DNA of 64,000 bases from Sphingomonas sp. LT1P40. GTDB lineage: Bacteria > Pseudomonadota > Alphaproteobacteria > Sphingomonadales > Sphingomonadaceae. This document shows positions 15,313 to 45,891 of the stretch, one piece after another. The position numbers and the translations under genes were made by a program. Position 1 is the stretch's first letter. Each line of letters opens with the position of its first letter. The notes beneath the pieces are model-generated. The model was not told the origin of the DNA and searched no databases. It worked only from the letters and a program-made list of their open reading frames with translations. Where the stretch lies: assembly GCF_036663835.1 (NCBI RefSeq), contig NZ_JAXOJT010000001.1:1-64000 (forward strand), given 5' to 3'.

Positions 15313-15315
15313 CAC

Positions 15316-17613: not shown

Positions 17614-17687
17614 AATCGCTCTCCCATTCGCGTCGGTCATTTGCCGACGTTGTAGGGGCAAACTGATCCAGAATGCGGAGCGAGTCA

Positions 17688-17707
17688 ATACTCACTATCA
17701 CGAGTGT
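17688..17707. promoter_or_regulatory. Inverted repeat upstream of TonB receptor, candidate operator
   Basis: ATACTC-N8-GAGTGT (5 of 6 arm pairs match) lies 75 nt upstream of the receptor start. It contains ACTCACT, the same heptamer as in the SDR leader. Its proximity and shared half-site suggest control by the operon's TetR protein. This is inference. Confidence 0.3.
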
Positions 17708-17735
17708 GAACGTTTTTCAGGGCGGGTTCAGCGCC

Positions 17736-18860: not shown

Positions 18861-18949
18861 CATTTTCTCCCGCATGTTCCCTTCGTCATTGCCGAGAGCG
18901 CGCGCCGATCGCAGCCCTTCTCAAGGGTAAGGGCACTCCGAAAAGGGTA

Positions 18950-22130: not shown

Positions 22131-22598
22131 TCAGGCGACCGCGAAGAAATCGAACACCGAATGATCGGCATGCTTCTCGCCGTATCCGACGAACACGGTG
22201 CGGGTGAGCCAGTCGTGCGGGCCGGGGGCGGTCTCGAACGAGGGGGCCAGGCGGAAATAATTGTCGGCAGGATCGACCTGCTCGCCGCGCTCGATCCGTG
22301 CCTGCACCTCGGGCGGGGCGTGCGCGAAGCCACGGTTCGATACCTGAATCAGCGTGCCGTCGCTGGCGCGGATCAGATAGCGCGCGTCGAACGCGATGAC
22401 CCCGTCGGAGCGGATCAGCGGCCAGTCGCCACCGCTCCCGGCGATGACCTCACCCGTCAGGCGCGGGCCGGTGACGATGCCGCCGGAGACCTGGACGAAA
22501 CCACGGGCTTCGCCGCCGCGTACCGGAAAGCGGATGCGCGGTCCGGGTGGAAAGTCGAGATGCACGCGAAAGGCGAAGTCGAGCGTGGGAATGTTCAT
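22131..22598 (-). CDS. DUF3237 (UPF0311) family protein
   Basis: A beta-rich protein of 155 residues, beginning PTLDFAFRVHLDF and carrying GGIVTGPRLTGEVIAGSGGD, WPLIRSDGVIAFDARYLI and a C-terminal TRTVFVGYGE. These fit the DUF3237 family, small proteins of unknown activity that often sit in aromatic and sugar-acid degradation operons. ATG 22598 forms an ATGA overlap with the stop of the (frameshifted) MFS gene, so the two were translationally coupled. The enolase-superfamily gene follows after 27 nt. No catalytic residues can be assigned. Confidence 0.8.
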   Translation of the reverse strand: MNIPTLDFAFRVHLDFPPGPRIRFPVRGGEARGFVQVSGGIVTGPRLTGEVIAGSGGDWPLIRSDGVIAFDARYLIRASDGTLIQVSNRGFAHAPPEVQARIERGEQVDPADNYFRLAPSFETAPGPHDWLTRTVFVGYGEKHADHSVFDFFAVA

Positions 22599-23891
22599 GC
22601 GCGGTCTCGTTTCCGTTGGAAGGGTGCGATCACCAACCCGCCCAGCACGAGCAGCAGCGCGAGCACGATCAGCGCGGGGACGAAGCTCCCGGTGCTTTGC
22701 TTGAGGCTGCCGATCAGCATCGGCCCCAGGATGCCCCCCGCCGTGCCGAACATGCTGATGAGCGCAATCGCAGTCACCGAAATGCGGCCGTTGCCGATGC
22801 CCATCGATGACGGGACTGCCCAGAATACCGATTGTGCCGCGCCGATCGCGGTGCCGGTAACGACCAGCAGCAGCAGCGCCAGCCAACCCGATGGCAACAG
22901 CGCGGCGATCAGCAATGCCAGGCCCGCCACGACGGCGGCGATACCGACATGCCAGCGGCGCTCGCCCGTGCGATCCGAATGCCAGCCATTGACCAGCATG
23001 CCGATGACCAGTCCCGCCTGTGGCAAGGCAGAGATCGTGCCGATCATGAACTCGGTGCCACCCAAATCCATCTGCCGGACCATCTGCGGCAACCAGAAGA
23101 CCAGGGCATAGGAGCCGGTCATCACGAACAGCCACGTCACCGCACAGCGCCACACACGCGTATCGCCGACCACACTGCGAATTGGTTCGCGCGGCGGCGA
23201 AACGGCCGTTGGTGCAAGCTGCGCGCGCTCATCGTCGTTCAGCCAGCGCGATTGCGTGACATCGTCGCGAAAGTAGAAATAGGCGGCAATCGCAAGCGCG
23301 AAATTGGGAAGTGCCTGGAGCACGAACATCCAGCGCCACGGGGCGATGCCGAACGGATTGCCGATGCCCAGCATCCACCCGCATAACGGACCGCCGACCA
23401 CCAGCGAGAACGGCACGGCGGCAAGCACGGTGGCCATCGCCTTGGCGCGCATTTCGGGGGGAACCCAGCGATTGATGTACCAGGTGACGCCGGGCGCGAA
23501 CCCCGCTTCGGTGATGCCGAGCAGGAACCGCGCCGCCACCATTTCGCCGACCGTATCGACCCGCGCCATCAACAGCCCCGGCAACACCCCACAGCGTTAC
23601 CGAACCCAGCAGCCAGCGGCGCATCCCGAACCGGCGCAGCAACTCGGCATGCGGATATTGAAAGATGAGATAGGCGACGAAGAACGCGCTGACACCCAGT
23701 CCGAACGTTGCCGGCGACAGGCCGATATCCGGCCCCATCGCATGCGCGGCAAAGCTGACATTCACGCGATCTATCGCATTCACGAAGGTCAGCAGCGCAA
23801 GCGGCAGCACCAGCCAGCGAATCATGCGGCCGCCAAGCGCTATCCGTGCAGCACGGTCGTCGCCAACCATGCTCACGCGCACCGCCGCCAT
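22595..23891 (-). pseudogene. MFS transporter (ACS-like) split by a frameshift
   Basis: The N-terminal part (ATG 23891, AAGG upstream) reads VNAIDRVNVSFAAHAMG through RRFGMRRWLLGSVTLWG, the first helices of an anion:cation-symporter-type MFS protein. The rest continues in another frame as LPGLLMARVDTVGEMVAARF, LLGITEAGFAPGVTWYINRW and so on to the stop at 22595. The frames would join if one base were removed near the four-C run at 23587-23590 (GGGG in the coding sense). As read here the full ~430-residue transporter cannot be made. Either the gene is recently broken or there is a sequencing error in the run. Its intact operon partners argue for recent loss or error. Confidence 0.75.
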
Positions 23892-25157: not shown

Positions 25158-25224
25158 TAAATAGCTGAAGCGGACGACGACGCCCTGATGCGTCGCAAGG
25201 ATGATTTTGGGGAGGTGTCGTAGG

Positions 25225-27642
25225 ATGACTTTCGATCGTATCGCGCTGTTGAGCGGCGCAGCAACGCTGGCACTGCTGGCCACGCCTGCGGTGGCGCAGC
25301 AGGCCGCACCGGACGCAGCCCAGTCCGCATCCGACGGGCAAGAGGCGGAAACCACCGACGAGATCGTGGTGACCGCGCAGTTCCGCGCCCAGAATCTTCA
25401 GGATACGCCGCTGGCAATCACCGCCGTCGACGCGGCGATGCTGGAAGCGCGCGGCCAGACCTCGGTGATCGACGTTGCGGCACAGGCGCCGAACGTGACG
25501 CTGCGTCCGGCGACGGCGACCTTCGGTCCGTCGATCCAGGCATTCATCCGCGGCGTCGGACAATATGATTCCAGCTTTGCGTTCGAGCCCGGCGTCGGCC
25601 TGTATGTCGACGACGTTTATTACCCGACGCTGACCGGATCGATCGTCGACCTGGTCGATCTGGACCGGGTCGAAGTGCTGCGCGGGCCGCAGGGGACGCT
25701 ATCGGGTCAGAACTCGATCGGCGGTTCGATCAAGATCTTCTCGAAAAAACCGCAGGGTGACGGCAGCGGATTTGTCCAGGCCACCGTTGGCCGCTTCAAC
25801 CGGATCGAGCTGCGCGGCGCGGTCGATTTCGCACTTGTGCCCGATCAGCTGTTTGCCCGCATCACCGCGACCGGCGTGTCCAAGGACGGCTATGTCAAAC
25901 GTTACGACTATGCCTGCACCCATCCCGGCACCACGGTCCCGTCGTTCCAGACCGCGAACAAGGACTGCCTGCTAGGCACGCAGGGTGGCAAATCCTATGC
26001 AGCGATCCGCGGCGCGCTGCGCTGGATGCCGACCGACCGGCTCGAGGTCAATCTGATCGGCGACTATACCAACGACAAGAGCGAGGGTGCGCCGAGCACG
26101 CTGTTGTTCGTCGGAAACCAGGCTGGCGTGCCGGGCGTGCCCAACACGACGTCCGCCTATCAACTGGGCGGCGTCCCGCTGGGCAACGCGACCGGGTCGC
26201 CGTTCATCACCTCGTCGCCCTATGGCAATTTCGCGCAGGATAGCTTCACCGACAGCCCCTATGTGAACTATTCAACCTACATCAACTCCGCTCCGCGCGA
26301 CGGGACCGCGCCGTACAGCGTGGCGGATCGCAACGCGATCAATGGCTGGGGCGTATCGGGGCAGGTCGATTACGAACTGAGCGACAGCCTCTCGATCAAG
26401 TCGATCACCGCGACGCGGGGTTACGACACGCAATATGTGTTCGACGAAGGATCGCCGATCGACACCGCGCTGATCGACAATTTTCACGAAGTCACGCAGT
26501 TCAGCCAGGAACTGCGGCTGTCGGGCAAGGTTGCGGACAGTGTGAACTTCACCGTCGGCGGCTTCTATTTCAAATATGACGCGCGCTCGCGCCAGCGAGT
26601 GAGCATCCCGTCGTTGCAGTTCATTCAGGACGACCGGATCGAACAGCGTACCAAAGCCGCATTCGTCAATATCGACTGGCAGGCGACCGATGCGCTGAAT
26701 TTGGTCGGCGGCCTGCGTTACACCAGCGCGTCGAAAACGGTTCGCTATGGCCGCGTCGGCATCCCCGGCAGCATCTATGGCGGTCTGCCCGATCCGCGCA
26801 TCCGTTCGCTCGACGGCGTGGTCGGAAAGTTCGAGGGCGACAACTGGGATTATCGCGTCGCGCTGCAATATCGCTGGTCGCCCGAATTGATGACCTATGC
26901 CCAGGTTTCGACCGGGTTCAAGATCGGCGGCGTCAACCCGCGCGCCTTCTTTCCGCAACAGGCGCTGCCGTTCGGTTCCGAAAAACTCACCGCCTATGAA
27001 CTCGGCTTCAAGAGCGACTTGTTCGATCGCCGGGTGCGCCTGAACGTCTCCGGTTTCTACAACAAATATGACGATATTCTCGTCGTCGTCTCATCCTGTC
27101 CGCTGACGGGTGCGCCGGCTGCGCCGTGCGCGCTTCCGGTCAATGCGGGCAAGGCGAACGTGCGCGGGATCGAGGCGGAAACGACGTTGCGGATCGTGGA
27201 CGGTTTGATGGTCGACGCGTCGATCGCCTATCTCGATTTCGAATATAAGTCGCTCAGCGCCGCCGCGATCGCATCGGGTGTCACGCTGGCGATGCGCGGC
27301 CCGTTCACGCCGGAATGGCAATACAGCACTGGTGTTCAATATGAGATCGGAATGGGCAACGCCGGCACGATAACGCCGCGCTTCGACCTCAGCCATGTCG
27401 ACGGCTTCTTTCAGCAGGCGTCCAACGCGGCGCTCAACCGCGTGCCGGGGCGCACGCTGGTCAATGCCAATGTGACCTGGCGTTCGGTCGACCGCGACTG
27501 GTCGGTCGCGCTTGCGGTCACGAATGTCGCGGACAGACTTTATTATAACAGCATCTTCGACAATCGTGGCTCCAACAGCACGGTCACCGGCTATCCCGGC
27601 GCGCCGCGCGAATGGTCGCTCACGCTCAAGCGCAGCTTCTGA
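25225..27642 (+). CDS. TonB-dependent outer-membrane receptor
   Basis: A protein of 805 residues. ATG 25225 is chosen over 25201 because GGGGAGG lies 9 nt upstream and the signal peptide RIALLSGAATLALLATPAVA then starts cleanly. TonB-box-like DEIVVTAQFRAQNLQDTPLA, plug motif RVEVLRGPQGTLSGQNSIGG, and a barrel ending REWSLTLKRSF with the terminal Phe typical of outer-membrane proteins. It is followed after 13 nt by a carotenoid-oxygenase-like gene, so the imported compound may be that enzyme's substrate. Expression is probably controlled by the divergent MarR protein. Confidence 0.92.
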   Translation: MTFDRIALLSGAATLALLATPAVAQQAAPDAAQSASDGQEAETTDEIVVTAQFRAQNLQDTPLAITAVDAAMLEARGQTSVIDVAAQAPNVTLRPATATFGPSIQAFIRGVGQYDSSFAFEPGVGLYVDDVYYPTLTGSIVDLVDLDRVEVLRGPQGTLSGQNSIGGSIKIFSKKPQGDGSGFVQATVGRFNRIELRGAVDFALVPDQLFARITATGVSKDGYVKRYDYACTHPGTTVPSFQTANKDCLLGTQGGKSYAAIRGALRWMPTDRLEVNLIGDYTNDKSEGAPSTLLFVGNQAGVPGVPNTTSAYQLGGVPLGNATGSPFITSSPYGNFAQDSFTDSPYVNYSTYINSAPRDGTAPYSVADRNAINGWGVSGQVDYELSDSLSIKSITATRGYDTQYVFDEGSPIDTALIDNFHEVTQFSQELRLSGKVADSVNFTVGGFYFKYDARSRQRVSIPSLQFIQDDRIEQRTKAAFVNIDWQATDALNLVGGLRYTSASKTVRYGRVGIPGSIYGGLPDPRIRSLDGVVGKFEGDNWDYRVALQYRWSPELMTYAQVSTGFKIGGVNPRAFFPQQALPFGSEKLTAYELGFKSDLFDRRVRLNVSGFYNKYDDILVVVSSCPLTGAPAAPCALPVNAGKANVRGIEAETTLRIVDGLMVDASIAYLDFEYKSLSAAAIASGVTLAMRGPFTPEWQYSTGVQYEIGMGNAGTITPRFDLSHVDGFFQQASNAALNRVPGRTLVNANVTWRSVDRDWSVALAVTNVADRLYYNSIFDNRGSNSTVTGYPGAPREWSLTLKRSF

Positions 27643-35544: not shown

Positions 35545-36513
35545 ATGACGCGCGGTAGCTTCGACCTCAATCTGCTTCGCGCGCTCGATATGCTGCTGCG
35601 GCATCGCAATGTGACGCGCGCGGCGGAGACGCTGTTCGTGACGCAACAGGCGATGAGCGGATCGTTGCGGCGGCTGCGCGACCATTTCGACGATCCGCTG
35701 CTCGTCCGCGTCGGGCGGTCGCTGGAATTGTCGCCACTCGCGCGCTCGCTGGAGGGACCGGTGCGGGAGGCGATCCTGCGCGCGGACGCGGCCATTTCGA
35801 CGCGCCCGCATTTCGATCCGGCAACGGCGCGGATGAGCGTGCGGATCGCCATGTCCGATTATGCGACCTTCGTGATTCTGCCGCGGCTGTTGCGCCTGCT
35901 CACCCGCCGTGCGCCGCACATCGTCTGCCATTTCGAGGCGCTCAATCGTCATAGTCTTGAGGCGATCGAGCTGGGCGAGATCGACCTGTGCATCACCGCC
36001 GGAAACTGGGCGCTCTATCCAACCTATACCCCCATTCCCGACATTCGCGTGCAGCCGCTGTTCCACGAAGGGTTTATCTGTGCGGTCGATGGCGCGAAGC
36101 GCGATCCGGGGGAATTGCTGACGACGGCGCAATATGTCCGCATGCGGCACAATACGGCGGTGTTCGGTCAGGGCATCGAAACCGTCGTGGAAACGGCATG
36201 GCGGACCCATCGGCTGCCGATCAATGTGGTCGCCAGCGCCCCCAATTTCTCCAGCTTGCTCTATATGCTGCCCGGCACCGAGCTGATCGCCACGGTTCAG
36301 CGCCGGCTGGCGCATGCACTGGCCCCGTCGCTGGGCCTCAAGCTGCTCGAATGCCCGATCGAGATCGAGCCTTTGGAGGAGACATTGATCTGGCACGATC
36401 GCACCACCAACGATCCCGGCCACAGCTTCCTGCGCGACCAGCTGATTGAAATCGCACAACGTATTGATGCCGAAGCACCGCACAGCCCGGTCACAACTGT
36501 CAGTGATACCTAG
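35545..36513 (+). CDS. LysR-family transcriptional regulator (NodD/LinR-like)
   Basis: A protein of 322 residues. ATG 35545 follows AAGGGA at 6 nt and gives the family-typical start RGSFDLNLLRALDMLLRHRN; HTH is VTRAAETLFVTQQAMSGSLR followed by RLRDHFDDPLLVR. The effector domain follows (ARMSVRIAMSDYATFVIL). The N-terminus resembles the NodD/NahR/LinR subgroup that answers aromatic inducers. It lies between the fds operon (divergent) and the aromatic-type cluster that begins at 36603 on the same strand, so it could control either or both. Confidence 0.9.
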   Translation: MTRGSFDLNLLRALDMLLRHRNVTRAAETLFVTQQAMSGSLRRLRDHFDDPLLVRVGRSLELSPLARSLEGPVREAILRADAAISTRPHFDPATARMSVRIAMSDYATFVILPRLLRLLTRRAPHIVCHFEALNRHSLEAIELGEIDLCITAGNWALYPTYTPIPDIRVQPLFHEGFICAVDGAKRDPGELLTTAQYVRMRHNTAVFGQGIETVVETAWRTHRLPINVVASAPNFSSLLYMLPGTELIATVQRRLAHALAPSLGLKLLECPIEIEPLEETLIWHDRTTNDPGHSFLRDQLIEIAQRIDAEAPHSPVTTVSDT

Positions 36514-36602: not shown

Positions 36603-38939
36603 ATGGCTATCATCAAGGGGCGGCGGCAGCTGGCCGCATGCGTTTCCGTCATCGCGCTCGCTAGCGTTTCTACGCCGGCCGTTGCACAGGATGCAGCAGG
36701 CAACGGTGCGCAGCAGAGCGAAGCATCGGAAGGCGAGATTATCGTCACCGCGCAGCGGCGCGAGGAAAGCCTTCAGCGCACCGCGCTCGCCGTCGCCGCG
36801 ATCGGTGCCGACGACCTGGCCGAGGCGGGGGTCTCCGACGTCACCGGCCTGACCAAGCTGGTGCCCTCGCTGATCGTGCAGCCCGCGACCGGCACCTCGG
36901 TCGGTTTCTATCTGCGCGGCATCGGCGCGCTGGTCGGCAATGCCTTCACCGAGAACCCGGTCGCGTTCAACTTCAACCAGATTTACGTCGCCCGCCCCGC
37001 CGCCTTGCTCGGCACCTTTTACGATCTGGAACGGGTCGAGGTGCTGAAGGGGCCGCAGGGCACGCTCTATGGTCGCAACGCGACCGGCGGCGCGATCAAC
37101 GTCATCCCCAAACGCCCGCAGCTCGGAGAACGCGGTGCCGAAATCAATTTCGAGGGCGGCAGTTACAATGCGGTTCGCGCACAGGCAGCGGTCAACCTGC
37201 CGCTGGGCGATACCGCAGCACTTCGCGTGGCGGGTCAGGTGGCGCGGCGCGACGGCTATCTGTCCGATGGTTATGACGATGAGCAGGGCGAAGCGCTGCG
37301 CGGGTCGCTGCGGTTCGAGAGCGGGATTTTCGCGGCCACCATCGTCGGCGATTATTTCCATCAGGGCGGCATGGGCGTCGGCAGCGTGCTCGTGCCGTCG
37401 CCGCTGGTGCCCACCGCACCCGCCGTCGACCGGCGGATCGGCGCGTCCGACCCACGCAGCACCGGACCGCTTTATGCCGGTATTCTTGCAAGCGCATTGC
37501 CGCCACCGGCCAAGACCGACGGGCCGCTGCCCGGGATCATCCGGCCGAAAGGCGACGGGTTCGTCGACAGCGAATTCTGGGGCATCTCGGCCAATATGGA
37601 TGTCGATCTGGGCTTTGCGACGCTGTCGTTCATCCCGGCCTATCGCGACAGCCGACCCAATTACCTGAACTATAATGGCGGCTATTACGGCCACGTCCGC
37701 GAACAGGCGCAGCAAACCAGCATCGAAGCGCGGCTGGCATCGAACGGCGACGGGCCGCTGCAATATGTCATCGGCGGCTATTATTTCGACGAGGATCAGA
37801 CCGCGTTCAACCATTTCGTGCAGGGCAATGTGCTCAGCACGAAGTTCGCGGTGGACCTGACCAGCCGGTCGCGCGCCGTGTTCGGTCAGGCGACCTACGA
37901 GATTTTCCCCGATTTCCGGCTGCTCGGCGGGCTGCGCTACAGCCATGAGAAGAAGACCAATCGCGCGGCGCTGACCCAGACCGGCGTGTTCGCGGGTAAC
38001 CCGGTCGATCCGTTCAACAACAATGTCGCACCGGTTATCGTCACGGGCGCAAACACGTTCGACGATGTGACGTGGAAGGCTGGCTTCGAGTGGCAGGCAA
38101 CGCCGGAAAACCTGATCTATGCCAATGTCGCAACGGGCTTCAAATCGGGCGGCTTCTTCATCGCCACGCTCGACAACACCTTCGATCCCGAAAGCATCAC
38201 CGCCTATACCTTCGGCAGCAAGAACCGCTTTTTCGACCGACGGCTGACGTTCAATATCGAGGCATTTTACTGGAAGTATCAGGACCAGCAGGTCAACTAT
38301 ATCGGCCCGACGCGGAACCAGAATGCGATGGGTCAGACCGTCGTGGGCGCGGGACTGGTCACCACCAATGCCGGTTCGTCGCGCATCTATGGCGCGGAGG
38401 CGGAGCTGTCGTTCCGGGTCGTGGCCAAGGGCGTGTTTGCCGCCAACGTGCAGTATCTCAACGGCAAATATACCGAACTCACTTATCTCGCGGCGGGCAA
38501 TTCGCCGCCGCGCACCGCCTGTGGCGTGGCGCCGGTGGTCGATCCGAACTTCCCGGTGACGCCTCCGACGCAAACCTATCGCGTCAATTGTTCGGGGCGG
38601 CCACAGATCAACTCGCCCGAATGGAGCCTCAACCTCTCCTATGAACAGGGCTTCGATGTCGGCGACGACAGCGAGATCACGCTGGGCGCGCGGACCAAGA
38701 TCGAATCAAGCCGCTTCCTGTCGCCGGAATATCTGCCCGAGCAGCAGCAGGGAGCCTACATGATGTCGGACCTGTGGATCACCTATCGCAAGGATGACTG
38801 GTCGATCACCGGCTTCGTCAACAATGTCGAGGACGAGACGGTCTATGCCGGCACCAGCCTGAGGCCCGTTTTCCCCGCCGTGTTCAACATCCTGCGTGCG
38901 CCGCGCACATGGGGTGTGCGGGGCTCGTTCAAGTTCTGA
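36603..38939 (+). CDS. TonB-dependent outer-membrane receptor
   Basis: A protein of 778 residues from ATG 36603 with a GGAGGGAGAGGG tract upstream. Signal peptide (ACVSVIALASVSTPAVAQ), TonB-box-like GEIIVTAQRREESLQRTALA, plug motif RVEVLKGPQGTLYGRNATGG, barrel ending RTWGVRGSFKF with terminal Phe. It opens the eight-gene catabolic unit; the GST gene begins 30 nt after its stop. It probably brings the aromatic or heterocyclic substrate across the outer membrane. The cargo cannot be read from sequence. Confidence 0.92.
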   Translation: MAIIKGRRQLAACVSVIALASVSTPAVAQDAAGNGAQQSEASEGEIIVTAQRREESLQRTALAVAAIGADDLAEAGVSDVTGLTKLVPSLIVQPATGTSVGFYLRGIGALVGNAFTENPVAFNFNQIYVARPAALLGTFYDLERVEVLKGPQGTLYGRNATGGAINVIPKRPQLGERGAEINFEGGSYNAVRAQAAVNLPLGDTAALRVAGQVARRDGYLSDGYDDEQGEALRGSLRFESGIFAATIVGDYFHQGGMGVGSVLVPSPLVPTAPAVDRRIGASDPRSTGPLYAGILASALPPPAKTDGPLPGIIRPKGDGFVDSEFWGISANMDVDLGFATLSFIPAYRDSRPNYLNYNGGYYGHVREQAQQTSIEARLASNGDGPLQYVIGGYYFDEDQTAFNHFVQGNVLSTKFAVDLTSRSRAVFGQATYEIFPDFRLLGGLRYSHEKKTNRAALTQTGVFAGNPVDPFNNNVAPVIVTGANTFDDVTWKAGFEWQATPENLIYANVATGFKSGGFFIATLDNTFDPESITAYTFGSKNRFFDRRLTFNIEAFYWKYQDQQVNYIGPTRNQNAMGQTVVGAGLVTTNAGSSRIYGAEAELSFRVVAKGVFAANVQYLNGKYTELTYLAAGNSPPRTACGVAPVVDPNFPVTPPTQTYRVNCSGRPQINSPEWSLNLSYEQGFDVGDDSEITLGARTKIESSRFLSPEYLPEQQQGAYMMSDLWITYRKDDWSITGFVNNVEDETVYAGTSLRPVFPAVFNILRAPRTWGVRGSFKF

Positions 38940-38968
38940 CTCGGTAAATTGCGCGCGTGGGAGATGGT

Positions 38969-39703
38969 ATGACGACGGAGCTGACACTCTATTACGCACC
39001 GGACACCTGCGCGCGCGTTTCCATGATCGCGCTGGAGGAGACGGGCGCGCCGTATCGCGCGCAGCTCATCTCCTTCGTGCGCGGCGATCACCGGGCCGAG
39101 GCGTTCCTCGAATTACAGCCGCAGGGGCGAGTCCCCCTGTTGCTGGTCGATGGCGAACCGCTGGTCGAAAATGTTGCGATCCTGTCGTGGCTGCATGGCC
39201 GGTTTCCGGACGCGGGGCTGTTGCCAGCGGCGGAGAGTGATCTCGCCGCCGCGCGCCAGCTTGCCGATCTCGCCTGGTGCGCCTCGGGACTGCATCCGCT
39301 GGTCACGCGTATCCGTCTGCCGCAATTCAGCTGTCCGGTGCCGGAAGCACAACCCGCGGTGCGTGCGGCGGCGATGGCTGCGATGGCCGGGCAATTGCGC
39401 ATTGCCGAGGCGCGGCTAAACGACGGGCCGTGGTGGTATGGCGAGCGCTGGTCGATCGTCGATGCCTATCTCAACTGGGTATGGTTTCGCATCACCGGTG
39501 CCGGGTTCGACGCCGGACCTTTCCCCAGGCTGGCAGATCATGACCGGCGGATTACAGCGCGCCCGTCGGTGGCGCGGACGCTGGAAATCCATGCCACCGC
39601 TGCCCGCGAACTCGCCGACCAGGGCCTGGCGGTCAATTTCGACACGATCGCGCCGGTGCCGATGCCGCAGGTGGCAAACATCCTAATTGACGGAGTAAAA
39701 TAA
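38969..39703 (+). CDS. Glutathione S-transferase family protein
   Basis: A protein of 244 residues, ATG 38969 after GGGAGA. The N-terminal thioredoxin fold is LTLYYAPDTCARVSMIALEE with VPLLLVDGEPLVENVAILSW, where cis-Pro and the EN glutathione site are visible; an all-helical C-terminal domain follows (WWYGERWSIVDAYLNWVWF). In aromatic clusters such proteins often act as glutathione-dependent isomerases of ring-cleavage products or as ether-cleaving enzymes, rather than in detoxification. Its stop overlaps the VOC gene start (TAATG), so it is part of the same transcript and pathway. Confidence 0.85.
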   Translation: MTTELTLYYAPDTCARVSMIALEETGAPYRAQLISFVRGDHRAEAFLELQPQGRVPLLLVDGEPLVENVAILSWLHGRFPDAGLLPAAESDLAAARQLADLAWCASGLHPLVTRIRLPQFSCPVPEAQPAVRAAAMAAMAGQLRIAEARLNDGPWWYGERWSIVDAYLNWVWFRITGAGFDAGPFPRLADHDRRITARPSVARTLEIHATAARELADQGLAVNFDTIAPVPMPQVANILIDGVK

Positions 39704-40698
39704 TGGCGATCCTGGGAATTGACTCCCTGATCTTTGGCGTCGCGGACGTCGGCACATGCGTGCGCTATTTCGAGGATTTCGGACTTAACCTCGTCGATTC
39801 CGCGCCGGATCACGGGCGTTTCGAGCTGGCGGAGGGATCGAGCGTGGTGATCCGGCATCGCGCCGACCCCGCGCTCCCCGCCACCCGGATGGAGGGCGAC
39901 GGCGTGCGCGAGGTGATCTGGGGCGTCGATACCGCCACCGCGCTGGATCGGCTGGCCGCCGACCTGGCCCGCGATTGCGATGTGCGGCGCGATGCCGACG
40001 GGGTTGTGCGGTTCATGACGCCGTTCGGCCTGCCAATGGGGCTGCGCGTGTTCGCCAAGCGCCCGGTGCTCTACGCGCCCGATCCGGTCAACGCGCCAGG
40101 CCGCGTCAACCGGCTGAACCAGCACCGCAAGTGGCGCGAGCGCGCGCGACCGAAGGTCATCAATCACGTCGTCTTTGCCATCCCGGGCTATCAGGACGGC
40201 TATCATTTCATGCGCGACCGGCTGGGCTTTCGCCTGTCGGACCATCAGGTCGGGTTCGGCATGTATCTGCGCAGCGACGGGTCGAACAATCATCACAGCC
40301 TGTTGCTGCTCAACGCCAACGCGCCCTTCCCCGGCATGGACGGGGCGGTGCGGTTCCATCACGCCAATTTCGGGGTCGAGGATATCGACGAGATGATGAC
40401 CGGCGCGAACCATATGGCGCGCAAGGGCTGGGAGCCGTCCGAACACGGGCTGGGCCGTCACCGGATCGATTCGGCGCTGTTCTACTACCTGCCCTGTCCG
40501 GCGGGCGGAGAGGCCGAATATGGCGCAGATTCCGATTATATCGACGACAGCTGGGTGCCGCGTGAATGGACCGAACCGCTATTCGCCTATGCCCATTACA
40601 TTCATAACCTGCCGCATTTCCTGCATCAGTCGCCCAGCTGGAACCTGCGATACCTGACCACCGAAGCGGCACAGACCGCGCATGAGGGAGAGCATTGA
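39703..40698 (+). CDS. Two-domain VOC protein, extradiol ring-cleavage dioxygenase-like
   Basis: A protein of 331 residues with two vicinal-oxygen-chelate modules. The C-terminal module has a likely Fe(II) triad His155 (KVINHVVF), His219/220 (RFHHANFG) and Glu270 (AGGEAEYG). The spacing matches type I extradiol dioxygenases such as BphC. His197/198 and His248/253 could be the second-sphere histidines. The N-terminal module lacks these ligands, as is normal. It would open a catechol-like ring with O2. It is joined to the GST by TAATG and to the monooxygenase by TGATG overlap, which places ring cleavage directly after hydroxylation. Confidence 0.82.
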   Translation: MAILGIDSLIFGVADVGTCVRYFEDFGLNLVDSAPDHGRFELAEGSSVVIRHRADPALPATRMEGDGVREVIWGVDTATALDRLAADLARDCDVRRDADGVVRFMTPFGLPMGLRVFAKRPVLYAPDPVNAPGRVNRLNQHRKWRERARPKVINHVVFAIPGYQDGYHFMRDRLGFRLSDHQVGFGMYLRSDGSNNHHSLLLLNANAPFPGMDGAVRFHHANFGVEDIDEMMTGANHMARKGWEPSEHGLGRHRIDSALFYYLPCPAGGEAEYGADSDYIDDSWVPREWTEPLFAYAHYIHNLPHFLHQSPSWNLRYLTTEAAQTAHEGEH

Positions 40699-41837
40699 TG
40701 GCCGCCGTGCAAAGGGTGCTGGTGATCGGCGGGGGCATTGGCGGGCTGTTCACCGCGCGCGCGCTGCGGCTGAAGGGGATCGCGGTCGACCTGATCGAGA
40801 AACAGCCCGACTGGACGGTCTATGGCGTGGGGATCATCCAGCCCAACAACGCGCTGCGTGCGTTCGAGCGGGTCGGGCTGGCGCAGGCCTGTCTGGAACG
40901 CGGCGGCGCGTTCGAGGGGTGGCGGATCCACGATGTCAACGGCAAGGTGCTGATCGAGGCGCATGGCGCGCGCGAGGCGGCCCCGCATTTGCCGCCCAAT
41001 AACGGCATTCCCCGGCCGATATTGCACGAGATACTGATCGAGGGCGCGAAATCGACCGGCACGGATATCCGGCTGGGTGTGACGGCGACGCGTATCGCCG
41101 ATGACGGAGCGGGGGTGGACGTCGATTTTTCGGACGGCGTTTCGCGGCGCTACGATTTGGTGGTGGGTTTCGACGGCGCGTTTTCGGACACCCGCAAATT
41201 GCTTTTCGGGGATCGCTACACACCGACCTTCACCGGGCAGGGGGTATGGCGATACAATCTGCCGCGCCCGCCCGAGGTGGACACCGGGGGCGTGTTCTTC
41301 GGACCCGACACAAAGATCGGCCTCACGCCGATGTCGCCGACCCAGATGTATATGTTCGTGGTCACGCCCGAGGCCGACAATCGCTGGCTGGAGGGGCCGC
41401 AGCTTGCCGACGAGATGCGCCGCCGCGTTGCCGCCTATGGCGGGCCGATCCCGGCACTGGCGGCGCAGATCGTCGATCCGGCGGAGGTCGTCTATCGCCC
41501 GATGATGCACGTAATGGTGACCGAGCCGTGGTATCGCGGGCGGGTGATGATCGCGGGCGATGCGGCACATGCCACCACGCCGCATCTGGCACAGGGCGCG
41601 GCGATGGCGATCGAGGACGGCGTGCTGCTGGCCGAACTGCTCGCCGCCGAGGATGCGCTGGAACCGGCGTTGCAGGCATTCATGGCGCGCCGTTACGACC
41701 GCGCCAAATATGTCGTCGATGTCTCCAACCAGCTTGCCGAATGGGAGCTGGAGGAATGGGCCGGCGTTCATAATCCCGACGCCAATCCCGGTGCCCTGCT
41801 CCATAGCGCCACGCACGCGCTGATGGCCGATTATTGA
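40698..41837 (+). CDS. FAD-dependent aromatic-ring monooxygenase (PHBH-like)
   Basis: A class A flavoprotein monooxygenase of 379 residues: dinucleotide site VLVIGGGIGGLFTARAL, DG motif VVGFDGAFSDTRK, and FAD-ribityl GD motif MIAGDAAHATTPHLAQGAAM. The family uses NAD(P)H and O2 to hydroxylate a phenolic or N-heteroaromatic ring. ATG 40698 overlaps the VOC stop by one base (TGATG). The natural order is hydroxylation here followed by cleavage by the VOC enzyme. Exact substrate unknown. Confidence 0.88.
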   Translation: MAAVQRVLVIGGGIGGLFTARALRLKGIAVDLIEKQPDWTVYGVGIIQPNNALRAFERVGLAQACLERGGAFEGWRIHDVNGKVLIEAHGAREAAPHLPPNNGIPRPILHEILIEGAKSTGTDIRLGVTATRIADDGAGVDVDFSDGVSRRYDLVVGFDGAFSDTRKLLFGDRYTPTFTGQGVWRYNLPRPPEVDTGGVFFGPDTKIGLTPMSPTQMYMFVVTPEADNRWLEGPQLADEMRRRVAAYGGPIPALAAQIVDPAEVVYRPMMHVMVTEPWYRGRVMIAGDAAHATTPHLAQGAAMAIEDGVLLAELLAAEDALEPALQAFMARRYDRAKYVVDVSNQLAEWELEEWAGVHNPDANPGALLHSATHALMADY

Positions 41838-41848
41838 GGAAGCCGGAC

Positions 41849-42775
41849 ATGGCCAAGGTCATCATCAGCTGTGCCGTCACCGGATCGGCGCACGTCCCCA
41901 GCATGTCGGACGCGCTGCCGATCACGCCCGAGGAGATCGCAACGCAGGCGATCGACGCGGCGGCGGCAGGGGCGGCGATTCTGCATCTGCACGCACGCAT
42001 GCCCGAGGATGGCCGACCGACCGGCGACCCGGATGTGTATGCACACTTTCTGCCCGTCATCCGGCAAGCGACGGACGCGGTGGTGAACCTGACCACCGGC
42101 GGCGCGGTGACGATGACCGTGGCGGAGCGGCTGGCGGCGGCGGTCAGGTTCCGCCCGGAAATGTGCTCGCTCAACATGGGGTCGATCAACTTCGCCTTCT
42201 TCCCGGCCGCCGCCCGGATTTCGACGTGGAAGCATGACTGGGAGCGTGATTATGTCGTGAACTCGGACGACTATATCTTCCGCAACACGTTCCGCGACAT
42301 CGCCTATATCCTCGAAACGCTGAGTGACAGCGGCACCCGTTTCGAGCATGAATGCTACGACGTCGGCCACCTCTACAACCTCGCCCATTTCGTCGATCGC
42401 GGGTTGGTGAAGCCGCCTTTCTTCATCCAGATGGTCTTTGGCATATTGGGCGGGATCGGCCCCGACCTCGACAACCTGATGTTCATGAAACAGACCGCCG
42501 ACCGCCTGTTCGGGCGTGAGAATTTTCAGTGGTCGGTGCTGGCGGCGGGGCGGCACCAGATGCCGTTCCTCACGCAAGCCGCGCTGCTCGGCGGGCATAT
42601 CCGCGTCGGGCTGGAGGACAGCCTGTTCATCGAGCGCGGGACGCTGGCGCTCAGCAACGCGCAACAGGTCGAAAAGGCCGTCCGCATCCTGCGCGAAATG
42701 GGTCACGAACCCGCCACCCCGGCCGAGGCGCGCGCGATGCTGCACCTCAAGGGCGGCGACAGGGTGGAGTTCTGA
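41849..42775 (+). CDS. BKACE-family (beta-keto acid cleavage) enzyme, DUF849
   Basis: A TIM-barrel protein of 308 residues beginning AKVIISCAVTGSAHVP. The zinc pair His46/His48 is in AAILHLHARMPEDGRPTGD, and NLTTGGA, SLNMGSINF and HIRVGLEDSLFI follow as in 3-keto-5-aminohexanoate cleavage enzyme. The family condenses a beta-keto acid with acetyl-CoA and splits it to acetoacetate and a new CoA ester. This would let the pathway enter central metabolism without a dedicated CoA ligase, and none is present in the cluster. GAGGAAG precedes ATG 41849. The cyclase gene follows after 2 nt. Confidence 0.85.
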   Translation: MAKVIISCAVTGSAHVPSMSDALPITPEEIATQAIDAAAAGAAILHLHARMPEDGRPTGDPDVYAHFLPVIRQATDAVVNLTTGGAVTMTVAERLAAAVRFRPEMCSLNMGSINFAFFPAAARISTWKHDWERDYVVNSDDYIFRNTFRDIAYILETLSDSGTRFEHECYDVGHLYNLAHFVDRGLVKPPFFIQMVFGILGGIGPDLDNLMFMKQTADRLFGRENFQWSVLAAGRHQMPFLTQAALLGGHIRVGLEDSLFIERGTLALSNAQQVEKAVRILREMGHEPATPAEARAMLHLKGGDRVEF

Positions 42776-42777
42776 TC

Positions 42778-43554
42778 ATGTCACGCCGCATCGTCGATCT
42801 GTCCATCTATCTCGAAAACGACGTTATTTCCGACCCCGCGCCGTTCCGCCCCAGAATCGAGTATATCGACCACAAGATGTCGGTGCCGGAACTGGCGGCT
42901 TTCTTCCCCGGCCTGCAACCCGGCGACCTTCCAGATGGCGAGGCATGGGCGATCGAGCGGATCGACCTTATCACGCACAACGGCACGCATCTCGACGCGC
43001 CCTATCACTTCGCCTCGACCATGGACCGGGGCGAGCGGGCGATCACGATCGACGAGGTGCCGCTGGACTGGTGTTTCCAGCCGGGCGTGAAACTCGATTT
43101 CACCGCGCTGCCTGACGGTCATGTCGTCACCGCGCAGGAGGTGGAGGCGGAACTGGCGCGGATCGGGCACATCCTGTCCCCGCTCGAAATCGTGGTCGTC
43201 AACACCGCCGCCGGCAAACGCTATGGCCAGGACGATTACGTCACCGCCGGATGCGGCATGGGCTATGAAGCGACCATGTATCTGCTGGAGCGCGGCGTGC
43301 GGCTGACCGGCACCGACGGGTGGAGCTGGGACGCGCCGTTCGTCCATACGCGCGAGAAATACCTCGCCAGCGGCGACGCCTCGCTGATCTGGGAGGGGCA
43401 CAAGGCAGGGCGCGACATCGGTTATTGCCACCTGGAGAAGCTCCACAATCTGGAGGGCCTGCCGCCGACCGGCTTCACCATCGCCTGTTTCCCCATGAAG
43501 ATCCGCGCCGCATCCGCCGGGTGGACGCGCGCCGTCGCCATTTTCGAGGATTGA
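42778..43554 (+). CDS. Cyclase-family (kynurenine-formamidase-like) metal hydrolase
   Basis: A protein of 258 residues with the cyclase-family signature His67-x-Gly-Thr-His71-x-Asp73-x-Pro-x-His77 (THNGTHLDAPYHF), the divalent-metal site of bacterial kynurenine formamidase and isatin hydrolase. Other conserved bits are EIVVVNTAAG and TGTDGWSWDAPF. Members hydrolyse amide or lactam bonds or open cyclic compounds. Here the probable substrate is an amide, lactam or lactone formed after ring opening. It starts 2 nt after the BKACE stop. Confidence 0.85.
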   Translation: MSRRIVDLSIYLENDVISDPAPFRPRIEYIDHKMSVPELAAFFPGLQPGDLPDGEAWAIERIDLITHNGTHLDAPYHFASTMDRGERAITIDEVPLDWCFQPGVKLDFTALPDGHVVTAQEVEAELARIGHILSPLEIVVVNTAAGKRYGQDDYVTAGCGMGYEATMYLLERGVRLTGTDGWSWDAPFVHTREKYLASGDASLIWEGHKAGRDIGYCHLEKLHNLEGLPPTGFTIACFPMKIRAASAGWTRAVAIFED

Positions 43555-43560
43555 TCCGCA

Positions 43561-44709
43561 ATGTACGAACCCTTTCCCGGAAATTACGTCTGGAATCTCG
43601 GCGTCAACATCTGCCTGTGCATGGGTGCCAGCATGGGCGAGATCGACAAGGCGAACGACAAGGTCCGCGCCATCGCACAGGAGGGTGAGGACAAGGGCAC
43701 CGAGGCGTTCTTCGAAAGCTGGGGCGCGATGGCCGACAATCTGGTCGCGCTGGGCGAGGAATGCGAAGCGGCAGGCGACGGACCGGGCGCGTCGGAGAAA
43801 TATCTGCGCGCCACCGCTTATTATATGACGGCGGAGCGGATGCAGAGCCGCGACTATGCGCCGCGCCAGCAAATGTATCGGACCATGCTCGACACGATGA
43901 ACCGCGCGGTCGCAACCGGCGGGCTGGACTGCGAGCGGGTCGAAATCCCCTATGAAGGGACCAGCTATCCCGCCTTGTTCGTGCGTGGGCATGGCGACGG
44001 CCCGCGCCCGACGATGATATTCTGCAACGGCCTCGATAGCGTGAAGGAGATGATCTACCTCTCGACCCGCGATACCTTCGCGGTGCGCGGCATATCCGTG
44101 TTGATGGTCGATCAGCCTGGCGTGGGCGAAGCGCTGCGGCTCAAGGGGCTGCACGCCATCCCCGACAGCGAACGCTGGGCCGGCGCGGCGGTCGACTGGC
44201 TGGAGGGCCGCGCCCATGTCGATGCCGACCGGATCGGGATGATGGGCTGGTCGCTGGGCGGCTATTACGCGCCGCGCGCGACATGCTATGAACCGCGCTT
44301 CAAGCTGTGCGTGTCATGGGGTGCCAACCATAATTGGGGCGAGCTTCAGGCGCGGCGCATGCAGCGCGAGGGCGATCGCCCGGTGCCGCATTATTGGGAC
44401 CATGTGATGTGGGTATGGGGGCATAACGATATCGACGCCTTCATGGCCTTTACCCCGGTCGTGACGCTGGAAGGGCATATGGACCGCATGACCGTCCCCT
44501 ATCTCATCACCCACGGCGCGAACGACCGGCAGATCCCGCGCGAATATGCCCATCAAAGCCACGATCAGGCGGTCAACAGCCCCGATTGCGAACTGAAATT
44601 CTTCACCGAGCGCGAGGGCGGGGTGGAGCATTGCAGCGCCGACAATATGGAGCCGGTCAAAAGCTATATCGCGCATTGGGTGGCGAAACGGTTCGAGGGG
44701 ATGGGATGA
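43561..44709 (+). CDS. Alpha/beta hydrolase, 2,6-dihydroxypseudooxynicotine hydrolase-like
   Basis: A protein of 382 residues with a helical N-terminal cap (~1-125) and a C-terminal alpha/beta-hydrolase domain. Nucleophile Ser231 is in GMMGWSLGGYYA; Asp and His are probably in THGANDRQIPRE and GGVEHCSADN. The layout (helical lid first, then PTMIFCNGLDSVKEMIYL) resembles the C-C bond hydrolase of nicotine degradation and FrsA-type proteins. It could split a vinylogous 1,3-diketone or acyl-aromatic C-C bond. A 6-nt gap follows the cyclase gene, and its stop overlaps the SMP-30 start (ATGA). Confidence 0.82.
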   Translation: MYEPFPGNYVWNLGVNICLCMGASMGEIDKANDKVRAIAQEGEDKGTEAFFESWGAMADNLVALGEECEAAGDGPGASEKYLRATAYYMTAERMQSRDYAPRQQMYRTMLDTMNRAVATGGLDCERVEIPYEGTSYPALFVRGHGDGPRPTMIFCNGLDSVKEMIYLSTRDTFAVRGISVLMVDQPGVGEALRLKGLHAIPDSERWAGAAVDWLEGRAHVDADRIGMMGWSLGGYYAPRATCYEPRFKLCVSWGANHNWGELQARRMQREGDRPVPHYWDHVMWVWGHNDIDAFMAFTPVVTLEGHMDRMTVPYLITHGANDRQIPREYAHQSHDQAVNSPDCELKFFTEREGGVEHCSADNMEPVKSYIAHWVAKRFEGMG

Positions 44710-45749
44710 CATTGATCCGGCACGGGCGCGGTCCCAATCCGCTAAAGGGCTTTCAGGTCGATCCGGCGGCGATCCGGCGGATCGGACAGGATCTGCAACG
44801 CCCCGAATGCATCCTGGCCGAGCGTGACGGCACGTTATGGGCGGCCGATGCGCGCGGCGGGGTGATGCGGATCGCGCCGGATCGCAGCCAGCAACTGATT
44901 GTGCAGGCGGCCGATCCGCATTTCGACGCTTCGCCCGACAGCCTGTTGACCGGCACGCTGCCCAATGGCCTGGCCTTTGCCGCCAATGGCGACCTGTTGA
45001 TCGCCAATTTCGGGACCGACCGGCTGGAGCGGATGACGCGCAGCGGTGAAACCCGCGTGCTGCTGGACCGCATCGACGGCAGGCCGCCGGGCAAGGTCAA
45101 TTTCGTTCTGCGCGACAGCCGCGACCGGCTGTGGGTGACGATCTCGACGATGATCAATCCGTGGAGCGATGCGATCAATTCGACGCTGGCGGACGGCTAT
45201 GTGGTGCTGATCGACGAACGCGGCGCGCGCATCGTCGCCGACGGATTCCACTTCACCAACGAAGTCCGGCTCGATGCGGCGGAGGAATGGCTCTACGTCG
45301 CCGAGACCACCGCGAAACGGGTGACGCGGCTGCGCGTCCAGCCCGACGGATCGCTCACCGACCGCGAAGTCTATGGCCCCGCCAGCCTGGGCGCGGGGCT
45401 GATCGACGGCATCGCGTTCGACGCCTATGGCAATTTGTGGGCGACGATGATCTTCGCCGACCGGCTGGTCGCAATCACCCCCGATGGCGACTTGCTCGAA
45501 CTGATGAACGATGGCGATACTCAGGCAACGGCGCGGTTCGAGGCGATCTTCGCCACCGGCGCGAACGTGCCGTTCGACATCAGCATGGCATGCGGCGGCC
45601 CGACCTGCACCTGGCTGGCCAGTGTCACCTTCGGCGGGCCTGACCTCGGCACGGTCTATCTGGGCGGATTGCGGAGCACATCGATTCCCTATTTCCAAAG
45701 CCCGGTCCCCGGACTGGCCATGTCACACTGGGATCGTAAAAGGGCCTGA
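44706..45749 (+). CDS. SMP-30/gluconolactonase-family protein
   Basis: A protein of 347 residues with a six-bladed propeller pattern of the SMP-30/LRE family: PECILAERDGTLWAADARGG, LPNGLAFAANGDLLIANFGT, KVNFVLRDSRDRLWVTIST, GFHFTNEVRLDAAEEWLYVA, LIDGIAFDAYGNLWATMIF. The Glu/Asn/Asp metal site characteristic of lactonases can be placed on these repeats (Glu in PECI, Asn in KVNF or TNE, Asp in LIDG). Likely hydrolyses a lactone formed during the pathway. ATG 44706 overlaps the hydrolase stop. It is the last gene before the tRNA. Confidence 0.85.
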   Translation: MTLIRHGRGPNPLKGFQVDPAAIRRIGQDLQRPECILAERDGTLWAADARGGVMRIAPDRSQQLIVQAADPHFDASPDSLLTGTLPNGLAFAANGDLLIANFGTDRLERMTRSGETRVLLDRIDGRPPGKVNFVLRDSRDRLWVTISTMINPWSDAINSTLADGYVVLIDERGARIVADGFHFTNEVRLDAAEEWLYVAETTAKRVTRLRVQPDGSLTDREVYGPASLGAGLIDGIAFDAYGNLWATMIFADRLVAITPDGDLLELMNDGDTQATARFEAIFATGANVPFDISMACGGPTCTWLASVTFGGPDLGTVYLGGLRSTSIPYFQSPVPGLAMSHWDRKRA

Positions 45750-45816: not shown

Positions 45817-45891
45817 TGGTGACCCCTACGGGAATCGAACCCGTGCTTCAGCCGTGAAAGGGCCGCGTCCTAACCGCTAGACGAAGGGGCC
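45817..45891 (-). tRNA. tRNA-Glu (anticodon TTC), CCA encoded
   Basis: The minus strand folds to a full cloverleaf. The acceptor stem starts GGCCCCT and pairs with AGGGGTC (one G-U), then A73 and genomic CCA (45817-45819). D-arm TCTAGCGGTTAGGA, anticodon loop CCTTTCACGG giving TTC for glutamate, T-arm CGGGTTCGAATCCCG. It separates the catabolic region from the core genes beginning with recJ. No second copy of its 3' end was noticed in the window. Confidence 0.97.

Follow-up and report, generated by a model that had tools for sequence, protein, structure and literature searches.

A putative polyphenol ring-cleavage operon with a BKACE gene in Sphingomonas sp. LT1P40

Introduction

Bacterial gene clusters for cleavage of the flavonoid A ring include fde and ifc. 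In the naringenin cluster fde of Herbaspirillum seropedicae SmR1, a FAD monooxygenase hydroxylates the A ring and ring cleavage comes next (PMC8552027, PMC11069340). This monooxygenase, FdeE, is reported to act with the Rieske protein FdeD, while FdeA is listed as phenol-degradation-protein-like (PMC8552027). The isoflavone cluster ifc of Variovorax sp. V35 is described as resembling fde: its FAD monooxygenase (FMO) is 36.3% identical to FdeE and its glyoxalase IfcB 65.8% to FdeC, and it also carries cupins and an alpha/beta hydrolase (ABH) 25% identical to pseudooxynicotine hydrolase (PMC11069340). According to the same paper, IfcA is responsible for 8-hydroxylation of isoflavones, 2-hydroxy-5-(4-hydroxyphenyl)-4H-pyran-4-one builds up in a cupin double mutant (its section 16), and this pyranone is handled by the cupin enzymes IfcD1/D2 (its section 17). 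Here we describe a nine-gene unit from Sphingomonas sp. LT1P40, located in positions 1 to 64,000 of contig NZ_JAXOJT010000001.1 (the window, 64,000 nucleotides), which is almost certainly a single operon for meta-cleavage of an aromatic ring and which combines genes of the fde/ifc type with a BKACE gene.

BKACE enzymes have been reported in several other contexts. The anaerobic phloroglucinol pathway of Clostridium scatologenes (PGR, DPGC, TfD, TAL) includes a 'cyclase'-family C-C hydrolase, DPGC, and a BKACE, TAL (PMC10470551). According to PMC11961710, BKACE15 of Paracoccus denitrificans accepts 3,5-dioxohexanoate and 5-hydroxy-beta-ketohexanoate but has no known physiological role. A BKACE was also proposed for catechol/beta-ketoadipate metabolism in Betaproteobacteria (PMC6449761); with that precedent, the idea of ending an aerobic aromatic route in a BKACE is in itself not new, which makes the present finding somewhat less surprising. 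No description of the gene set studied here was found in the open-access literature searched, which does not establish its absence from print.

Similarity to known systems

The front half of the unit, composed of LysR, FMO, an extradiol dioxygenase of the VOC superfamily, ABH and cyclase, resembles at the sequence level the fde/ifc-type clusters for flavonoid A-ring cleavage, whereas its tail differs. What is new is the BKACE tail and its exchange with a FAA_hydrolase-family (FAH) enzyme; the whole kind of pathway is not. A preliminary description of this DNA, made from its letters alone, had matched the set to no known pathway. This view is not supported, since an FMO, an FdeC-like VOC and a pseudooxynicotine-hydrolase-like ABH are described for ifc, which resembles fde (PMC11069340), and since the ABH and the cyclase of a plasmid locus of Burkholderia anthina from the sorghum rhizosphere (L007) share 52% and 72% identity with their counterparts in the unit.

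The B. anthina locus comprises a PF13557 transporter, ABH, EthD, VOC, Rieske protein, FMO, MFS transporter, cyclase, cupin, FAA_hydrolase and epimerase. We regard it as probably fde-like because this content agrees with the reports on FdeA, C, D and E. Its FMO (38%), VOC (35%) and LysR (33%) also have counterparts in the unit; on the other hand, it carries a cupin and an FAH, and a window-type BKACE was not found there. The same front half is present in the fde-like loci L003, L006 and L007. The likeness to fde itself was drawn from its description and from such fde-like loci, and fde differs in having the Rieske partner FdeD, which the unit lacks. No paper linking sorgoleone with B. anthina was found in the open-access literature searched.

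As far as the published account of ifc extends, this cluster and the unit have in common an FMO, a VOC (FdeC-like in ifc), a pseudooxynicotine-hydrolase-like ABH and an intermediate of the pyranone type, observed for ifc and predicted for the unit. The ifc pyranone and the pyrone type predicted here are tautomers, which supports the proposed pathway. The two differ in that ifc carries cupins, the unit candidate lactonases and BKACE. The phloroglucinol pathway, as described, similarly brings together a cyclase-family enzyme and a BKACE, but it is reductive and oxygen-free, whereas the unit encodes two oxygenases and no reductase; indeed, no SDR-type protein (PGR/TfD-like reductase or dehydrogenase) was detected among the nine proteins with Pfam. 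The route suggested for beta-ketoadipate (PMC6449761) likewise has a CoA-dependent tail on an aerobic aromatic pathway, but with another substrate, a BKACE of another clade and a ring cleavage not of this VOC type.

Properties of the individual proteins

The BKACE belongs, by its score against curated models, to the 3,5-dioxohexanoate family: it reaches 515.9 bits with NF053538 (3,5-dioxohexanoate:acetyl-CoA transferase; cut-off 430), compared with 175.8 bits for NF053568 (3-oxoadipate:acetyl-CoA acetyltransferase), below the cut-off of 350. It is the sole PF05853 match in the host genome and scores 373 bits with BKACE15 of P. denitrificans (PDB 8RIO/8RIP/9HNF). Locus L069 was considered as the BKACE15 locus and rejected, its translation being visibly different from 8RIO; it encodes another P. 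denitrificans BKACE.

When the VOC protein was aligned to BphC (1han and 2zi8), H155, H220 and E272 fell on the metal-ligand positions of that enzyme. The protein therefore combines a VOC fold with a 2-His-1-carboxylate site, as expected of a type I extradiol enzyme, and such an activity is predicted. The FMO scores above the cut-off for the PRK06847 subfamily; its best solved match, a distant one, is 6-hydroxynicotinate 3-monooxygenase (8uiq, 110 bits). Its gene adjoins that of the VOC, and a LysR gene is also present, as expected of a cluster of the fde/ifc type.

The residues S231, D322 and H357 of the ABH, likely catalytic, are invariant across 20 aligned sequences. Among solved proteins it is closest in sequence to 2,6-dihydroxypseudooxynicotine (DHPON) hydrolase (2jbw, 22% identity), which ranks second by fold; the closest fold is SMU_737, titled acylaminoacyl peptidase, with FrsA also near. 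The resulting fold group comprises DHPON hydrolase, AntI, Ayg1/Wdyg1, FrsA and SMU_737, and the helical N-terminal part and the catalytic domain align nearly over their full length.

In the cyclase, the H, H, D and H of the motif HNGTHLDAPYH are invariant in 16 aligned sequences, and a weak match to the solved isatin hydrolase A was obtained; its predicted structure (pLDDT 62) was too poor for a fold search. The SMP-30 protein weakly matches solved gluconolactonases. For the glutathione S-transferase (GST), the best NCBIfam models are GstA and MaiA, both under cut-off. The TonB-dependent receptor is 46% identical to that of the FAH-type cluster L006.

Conservation and variation of the gene set

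A search of genome contigs with a VOC alignment profile yielded 39 loci, for which thresholds of presence were fixed gene by gene. A cut of 57% VOC identity, chosen after the table had been inspected, places 26 loci above and 13 below. Several of the 39 loci end at contig borders, so some absences may be false. Among the 26 closer loci, ABH was present in 23, BKACE in 22, FMO in 20, LysR in 18 (32-52% identity), SMP-30 in 17, the cyclase in 16, the receptor in 14 and GST in 4. The 13 others carried FMO (10 loci), ABH and LysR (2 each), and the cyclase and the receptor (1 each), with no BKACE, SMP-30 or GST. Close receptors, of at least 55% identity, occur in just four of the 14 loci (L023, 70%; L017, 69%; L021, 61%; L019, 55%). 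Since a GST homologue was found in only 4/26 loci, this gene was rejected as a defining member of the set.

The search for the set in other genomes, which the preliminary description had called for, thus showed it to be conserved. The complete set, including GST (67-68% identity), is present in Sphingomonas colocasiae (L023). Gene order is variable, with inversions in L022, L025, L034, L035 and L037, and the set remains clustered through this reordering. Window-type loci with both BKACE and ABH were found in sphingomonads, Burkholderia/Paraburkholderia, Niveispirillum, Pseudomonas and others.

A similar picture emerged from 249 genomes sampled evenly within the host's family and searched at E <=1e-40. 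The VOC was found in 14 of them, eight at 57% identity or more. In all eight, BKACE (76-88% identical; 100% in the host itself) and ABH share contig and strand with the VOC, at distances from it of 1.2-3.0 kb for BKACE and 1.9-6.0 kb for ABH; in the remaining six no BKACE match was found close to the VOC. Over the whole sample, BKACE was present in 59 genomes and ABH in 45. At this threshold, the four genomes sampled from the host's genus yielded none of the three proteins, a pattern suggestive of acquisition by transfer or of patchy loss. In one draft genome (G012, contig 20, 9230-10382) the ABH is read as two overlapping pieces, through a frameshift or an assembly error.

Several loci deviate from the window in their oxygenases. 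No FMO was found in L034, L035 and L037, which carry the alpha subunit of a ring-hydroxylating dioxygenase and a cis-diol dehydrogenase (families checked on L034); this pair is another predicted route to the catechol. Two VanA-type Rieske oxygenases are inserted within the unit in L012-L016 (Pfam checked on L012 and L014), suggesting O-methylated substrates at those loci.

Other variations concern the presumed lactonases. Among the 20 loci with BKACE and ABH, eight have both SMP-30 and the cyclase, five the cyclase only, seven SMP-30 only and none neither. A metallo-beta-lactamase-fold hydrolase is encoded between the receptor and GST/VOC in L019 and L023, and the host's second cluster, on contig 2, likewise has one next to its receptor; such an enzyme may be a third lactonase. 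In the Burkholderia-group loci L025 and L028, which are of the window type, a PF13557 protein is encoded beside the unit.

Distribution of BKACE and FAH

FAH genes were sought by tblastn with six reference FAHs from plasmid loci. BKACE only was found in 21 of the 39 loci, FAH only in 10, both in one (L050, with the FAH ~7 kb off) and neither in seven (Fisher 2.6e-4, relatedness of the loci being ignored). The 26 closer loci divide into 21 with BKACE only, one with both, two with FAH only (L016 and L027) and two with neither. For instance, L016 otherwise resembles the unit closely (VOC 70%, ABH 76%, cyclase 81%); neither BKACE nor SMP-30 was found there, and an FAH is encoded on the opposite strand, ~2.5 kb downstream of the ABH. 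As fumarylacetoacetate belongs to the 3,5-dioxo acids, FAH and a BKACE of the 3,5-dioxohexanoate type could have one type of intermediate as their common substrate.

The host appears to illustrate this exchange within one genome. Its contig 2 carries a cluster (L092, 7868-18789) composed of LysR, VOC, ABH, FAH, epimerase, cupin, MFS transporter, FMO, metallo-beta-lactamase-fold hydrolase and receptor, which is close to L006 on plasmid pKN1 of Sphingobium yanoikuyae (VOC 77%, ABH 78%, FAH 66%, cupin 53%, FMO 74%). It shares with the unit LysR, VOC, ABH (52%), FMO (47%) and the TonB receptor (48%), but differs by its FAA_hydrolase, cupin, epimerase, MFS and metallo-beta-lactamase-fold genes, and the window BKACE, cyclase and SMP-30 have no match in 19 kb around it. 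The host thus carries both tail types and probably two parallel ring-cleavage pathways. An RtcR-type sigma-54 regulator adjoins the contig-2 cluster (L092 5562-7157).

BKACE also occurs apart from the VOC. Among 11 such loci, a subset of a larger number, the cyclase is nearby in eight, SMP-30 in one and neither in two, so that cyclase and BKACE look like a portable module. In L080-L087, L004, L005, L069 and L070 the cyclase is near BKACE and ring-cleavage genes are absent; several of these loci lie beside TRAP, MFS or TonB transporters, and they are possibly stand-alone modules for small lactones or diketones. The plasmid locus L008 of Bradyrhizobium elkanii USDA 76 (soybean), possibly an isoflavone-type cluster, contains LysR, VOC, Rieske protein, FMO and a BKACE of 35% identity, with a cupin nearby; FAH had no match there over 25 kb.

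Proposed pathway and alternative explanations

On balance, we favor the reading of the unit as an fde/ifc-like catabolic operon for a polyphenol in which, as in flavonoids and chromones, an oxygen heterocycle is fused to a phenolic ring, with a CoA-dependent retro-Claisen end. That an fde/ifc-like pathway ends here in a BKACE whose substrate is a beta-keto or 3,5-dioxo acid seems fairly likely, and a flavonoid or chromone as the starting compound has at best close to an even chance. In such a pathway the TonB receptor would import the compound, the FMO would, as its family suggests, hydroxylate it ortho to a phenol to give a catechol, and the VOC, according to its metal-site residues, would open the ring beside the catechol. 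The GST may isomerize the fission product before ABH acts. ABH would then cut a C-C bond of a beta-diketone, releasing a keto-diacid (e.g., oxaloacetate) and a 4-hydroxy-2-pyrone or dihydro-lactone, which the cyclase-family enzyme and/or SMP-30 could open to a 3-oxo or 3,5-dioxo acid. Finally, the BKACE, assigned by family and with a presumed substrate, would convert this acid and acetyl-CoA to acetoacetate and an acyl-CoA: aroylacetyl-CoA from flavones, 3-hydroxy-3-arylpropionyl-CoA from flavanones. FAH-type clusters would perform the last step by plain hydrolysis. We propose that, as BKACE would make the acyl-CoA from acetyl-CoA, an ATP-using ligase is unneeded; a plausible order of steps and a possible ligase-free acyl-CoA route in a single aromatic-degradation operon had already been put forward in the preliminary description, and both are supported as such.

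For a 4-hydroxyphenyl product, other host enzymes could finish the degradation. PobA (611.5 bits, cut-off 538.7) is encoded ~2 kb from LigA, and a CoA transferase of the PcaI/ScoA family scores 239.8 bits (cut-off 128.5); PcaH has no host match at E <=0.001.

More tentatively, and with a probability that we put somewhat below even, BKACE and FAH tails could reflect a CoA-conserving branch of aerobic polyphenol ring cleavage, in which BKACE replaces the FAH-type hydrolase at an acyl-acetoacetate (3,5-dioxo acid). An acyl-CoA would be gained and one acetyl-CoA returned as acetoacetate, with the cyclase, SMP-30 and metallo-beta-lactamase-fold enzymes as interchangeable lactonases.

The same chemistry could also serve a monocyclic or other polyketide-derived phenol, such as an alkylresorcinol, an acylphloroglucinol or a compound of the orcinol or lichen type, rather than a flavonoid or chromone. 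We consider this unlikely, though 3,5-dioxohexanoate, the substrate of the BKACE family, is an aliphatic triketide, the ABH fold relatives AntI, Wdyg1p and Ayg1p use polyketides, and the phloroglucinol pathway as described includes a cyclase-family enzyme and a BKACE (PMC10470551). Against it speak the front half, which is like that of the fde-like clusters, the receptor, which shares 46-48% identity with its counterparts in two FAH-type clusters, and the presence of a lactonase candidate in 20/20 loci with BKACE and ABH, which suits a fused oxygen heterocycle better. The term 'trioxoheptanoate', from the orcinol route, was absent from the literature matches listed. A larger polycycle, i.e., a catechol derived from a steroid, an estrogen or a polycyclic aromatic hydrocarbon, is highly improbable: a VOC of 52% identity does lie near a P450, an acyl-CoA dehydrogenase and several SDR genes in L010, but none of the other proteins of the unit was found at that locus, and Pfam detected no beta-oxidation genes among the nine proteins of the unit.

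Lower still we rate the notion of two merely adjacent modules, one for ring cleavage and an independent cyclase/BKACE pair for small lactones. The cyclase is indeed found near BKACE without a VOC in 8/11 such loci and in the plasmid loci L004, L005, L069 and L070; however, the genes of the unit overlap tightly, and BKACE stays with the VOC through rearrangements and in 8/8 sampled genomes with a close VOC. Least credible is degradation of an N-heterocycle or a nicotine-like compound, a reading for which the preliminary description had left room. The best solved FMO match is 6-hydroxynicotinate 3-monooxygenase (8uiq), DHPON hydrolase (2jbw) is the best solved ABH match by sequence and the second by fold, the cyclase weakly matches isatin hydrolase, and its family includes amide hydrolases. 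These matches are nevertheless distant (22% for ABH to 2jbw) and do not single out N-heterocycles; a flavonoid cluster is described as carrying an ABH of the same family (PMC11069340), Pfam found neither molybdenum hydroxylase nor amine oxidase among the nine proteins, and no curated model of the nicotine or 6-hydroxynicotinate pathways reached its cut-off (for FMO, among the best 25 of 60 models).

Several observations weigh against the fde/ifc-like polyphenol pathway with a BKACE tail, or against parts of it. The fde-like VOCs of L003, L007 and L008 share just 31-37% identity with that of the unit, and an FdeD-type Rieske protein and a cupin were not found among the nine proteins with Pfam. 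In Variovorax, disruption of the ABH homologue (locus 59470) is reported to have left daidzein degradation unaffected (PMC11069340), so that C-C cleavage by ABH is a proposal; nor does the fold settle this reaction, since the same fold group includes SMU_737 and FrsA. The borders of the unit are not sharp: G174 and G220 have VOCs of 51% with a BKACE of 57% ~6 kb away, and L008 has its 35% BKACE near the VOC. Furthermore, L029 carries FMO together with the dioxygenase/diol dehydrogenase pair. In eight of the 10 loci with FAH only, the VOC is more distant, which makes the contrast between BKACE and FAH partly one of clade versus clade, and five scanned FAH enzymes match generic models only. BKACE of 69-83% identity is also found without ring-cleavage genes, so its substrate may be generic. 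The interchange of SMP-30 and the cyclase is only suggestive (P 0.083). Finally, many pathways make use of PobA, LigA and the CoA transferase; in 14 control genomes, they passed the cut-off in 1, 0 and 5 cases, respectively.

The unit nevertheless offers a testable pathway and substrate class for the subgroup of BKACE15, an enzyme well characterized in vitro whose cellular role is stated as unknown (PMC11961710), and a CoA-conserving branch, if true, would provide this subgroup with a physiological role. The exchange of FAH and BKACE resembles a natural experiment in which water-driven and CoA-driven retro-Claisen reactions seem mutually replaceable in otherwise similar pathways, both tail types being found in the host's own genome. 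These questions bear on plant-polyphenol turnover by soil and root bacteria and can be addressed with purified enzymes and available compounds.

Organization of the locus and neighboring genes

The nine genes are arranged head to tail, each with an ATG start. Eight of them had been recognized in the preliminary description, and their coordinates and Pfam families agree with it; that list was incomplete, as the LysR gene directly upstream belongs to the unit too.

Table 1. Genes of the unit, with positions in the window and roles suggested by family or context.
Gene product	Length (aa)	Position	Strand	Assignment	Suggested role
LysR-family regulator	322	35545-36513	+	Pfam HTH_1 + LysR_substrate	likely operon regulator
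TonB-dependent receptor	778	36603-38939	+	PF00593/PF07715	putative substrate uptake
Glutathione S-transferase (GST)	244	38969-39703	+	Pfam GST_N/GST_C	possible fission-product isomerase
Extradiol ring-cleavage dioxygenase, VOC superfamily	331	39703-40698	+	PF00903	
Class A FAD monooxygenase (FMO; aromatic hydroxylase)	379	40698-41837 (preferred start ATG 40698)	+	FAD_binding_3, PF01494, 107.6 bits	
BKACE		41849-42775 (preferred start ATG 41849)	+	PF05853, 371 bits	
Cyclase-family metal hydrolase	258 (from ATG)	42778-43554 (preferred start ATG 42778)	+	PF04199	putative lactone or cyclic-diketone opening
Alpha/beta hydrolase (ABH), FrsA-like	382	43561-44709	+	Pfam	putative C-C hydrolase
SMP-30/gluconolactonase-family (SGL) beta-propeller	347	44706-45749 (preferred start ATG 44706)	+	PF08450, 72.6 bits	putative lactonase

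The gaps are 89 nt between LysR and the receptor and 29 nt between the receptor and GST. The junctions after GST, most of which had already been described as overlaps or gaps of less than 12 nt, measure -1 (GST-VOC), -1 (VOC-FMO), 11 (FMO-BKACE), 2 (BKACE-cyclase), 6 (cyclase-ABH) and -4 nt (ABH-SMP-30). The base composition of the region is unremarkable, and a scan for promoters and terminators was uninformative (one promoter-like site versus 2.7 in shuffles, eight terminator-like sites versus 5.9). The absence of a CoA ligase noted earlier holds for the unit but not for the window, where an AMP-binding ligase is encoded at 10839-12491.

This ligase belongs to another catabolic-looking group on the minus strand (10839-18875), together with a carboxylesterase, an MFS transporter, a TonB receptor and an Abhydrolase_3 protein. 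Upstream of the unit, also on the minus strand, formate-dehydrogenase-like genes were recognized from their translations, and a tRNA-Glu is located 3' of the unit on the opposite strand (45817-45891). The window further encodes a DUF3237 protein (22134-23153) and another TonB receptor (25201-27639).

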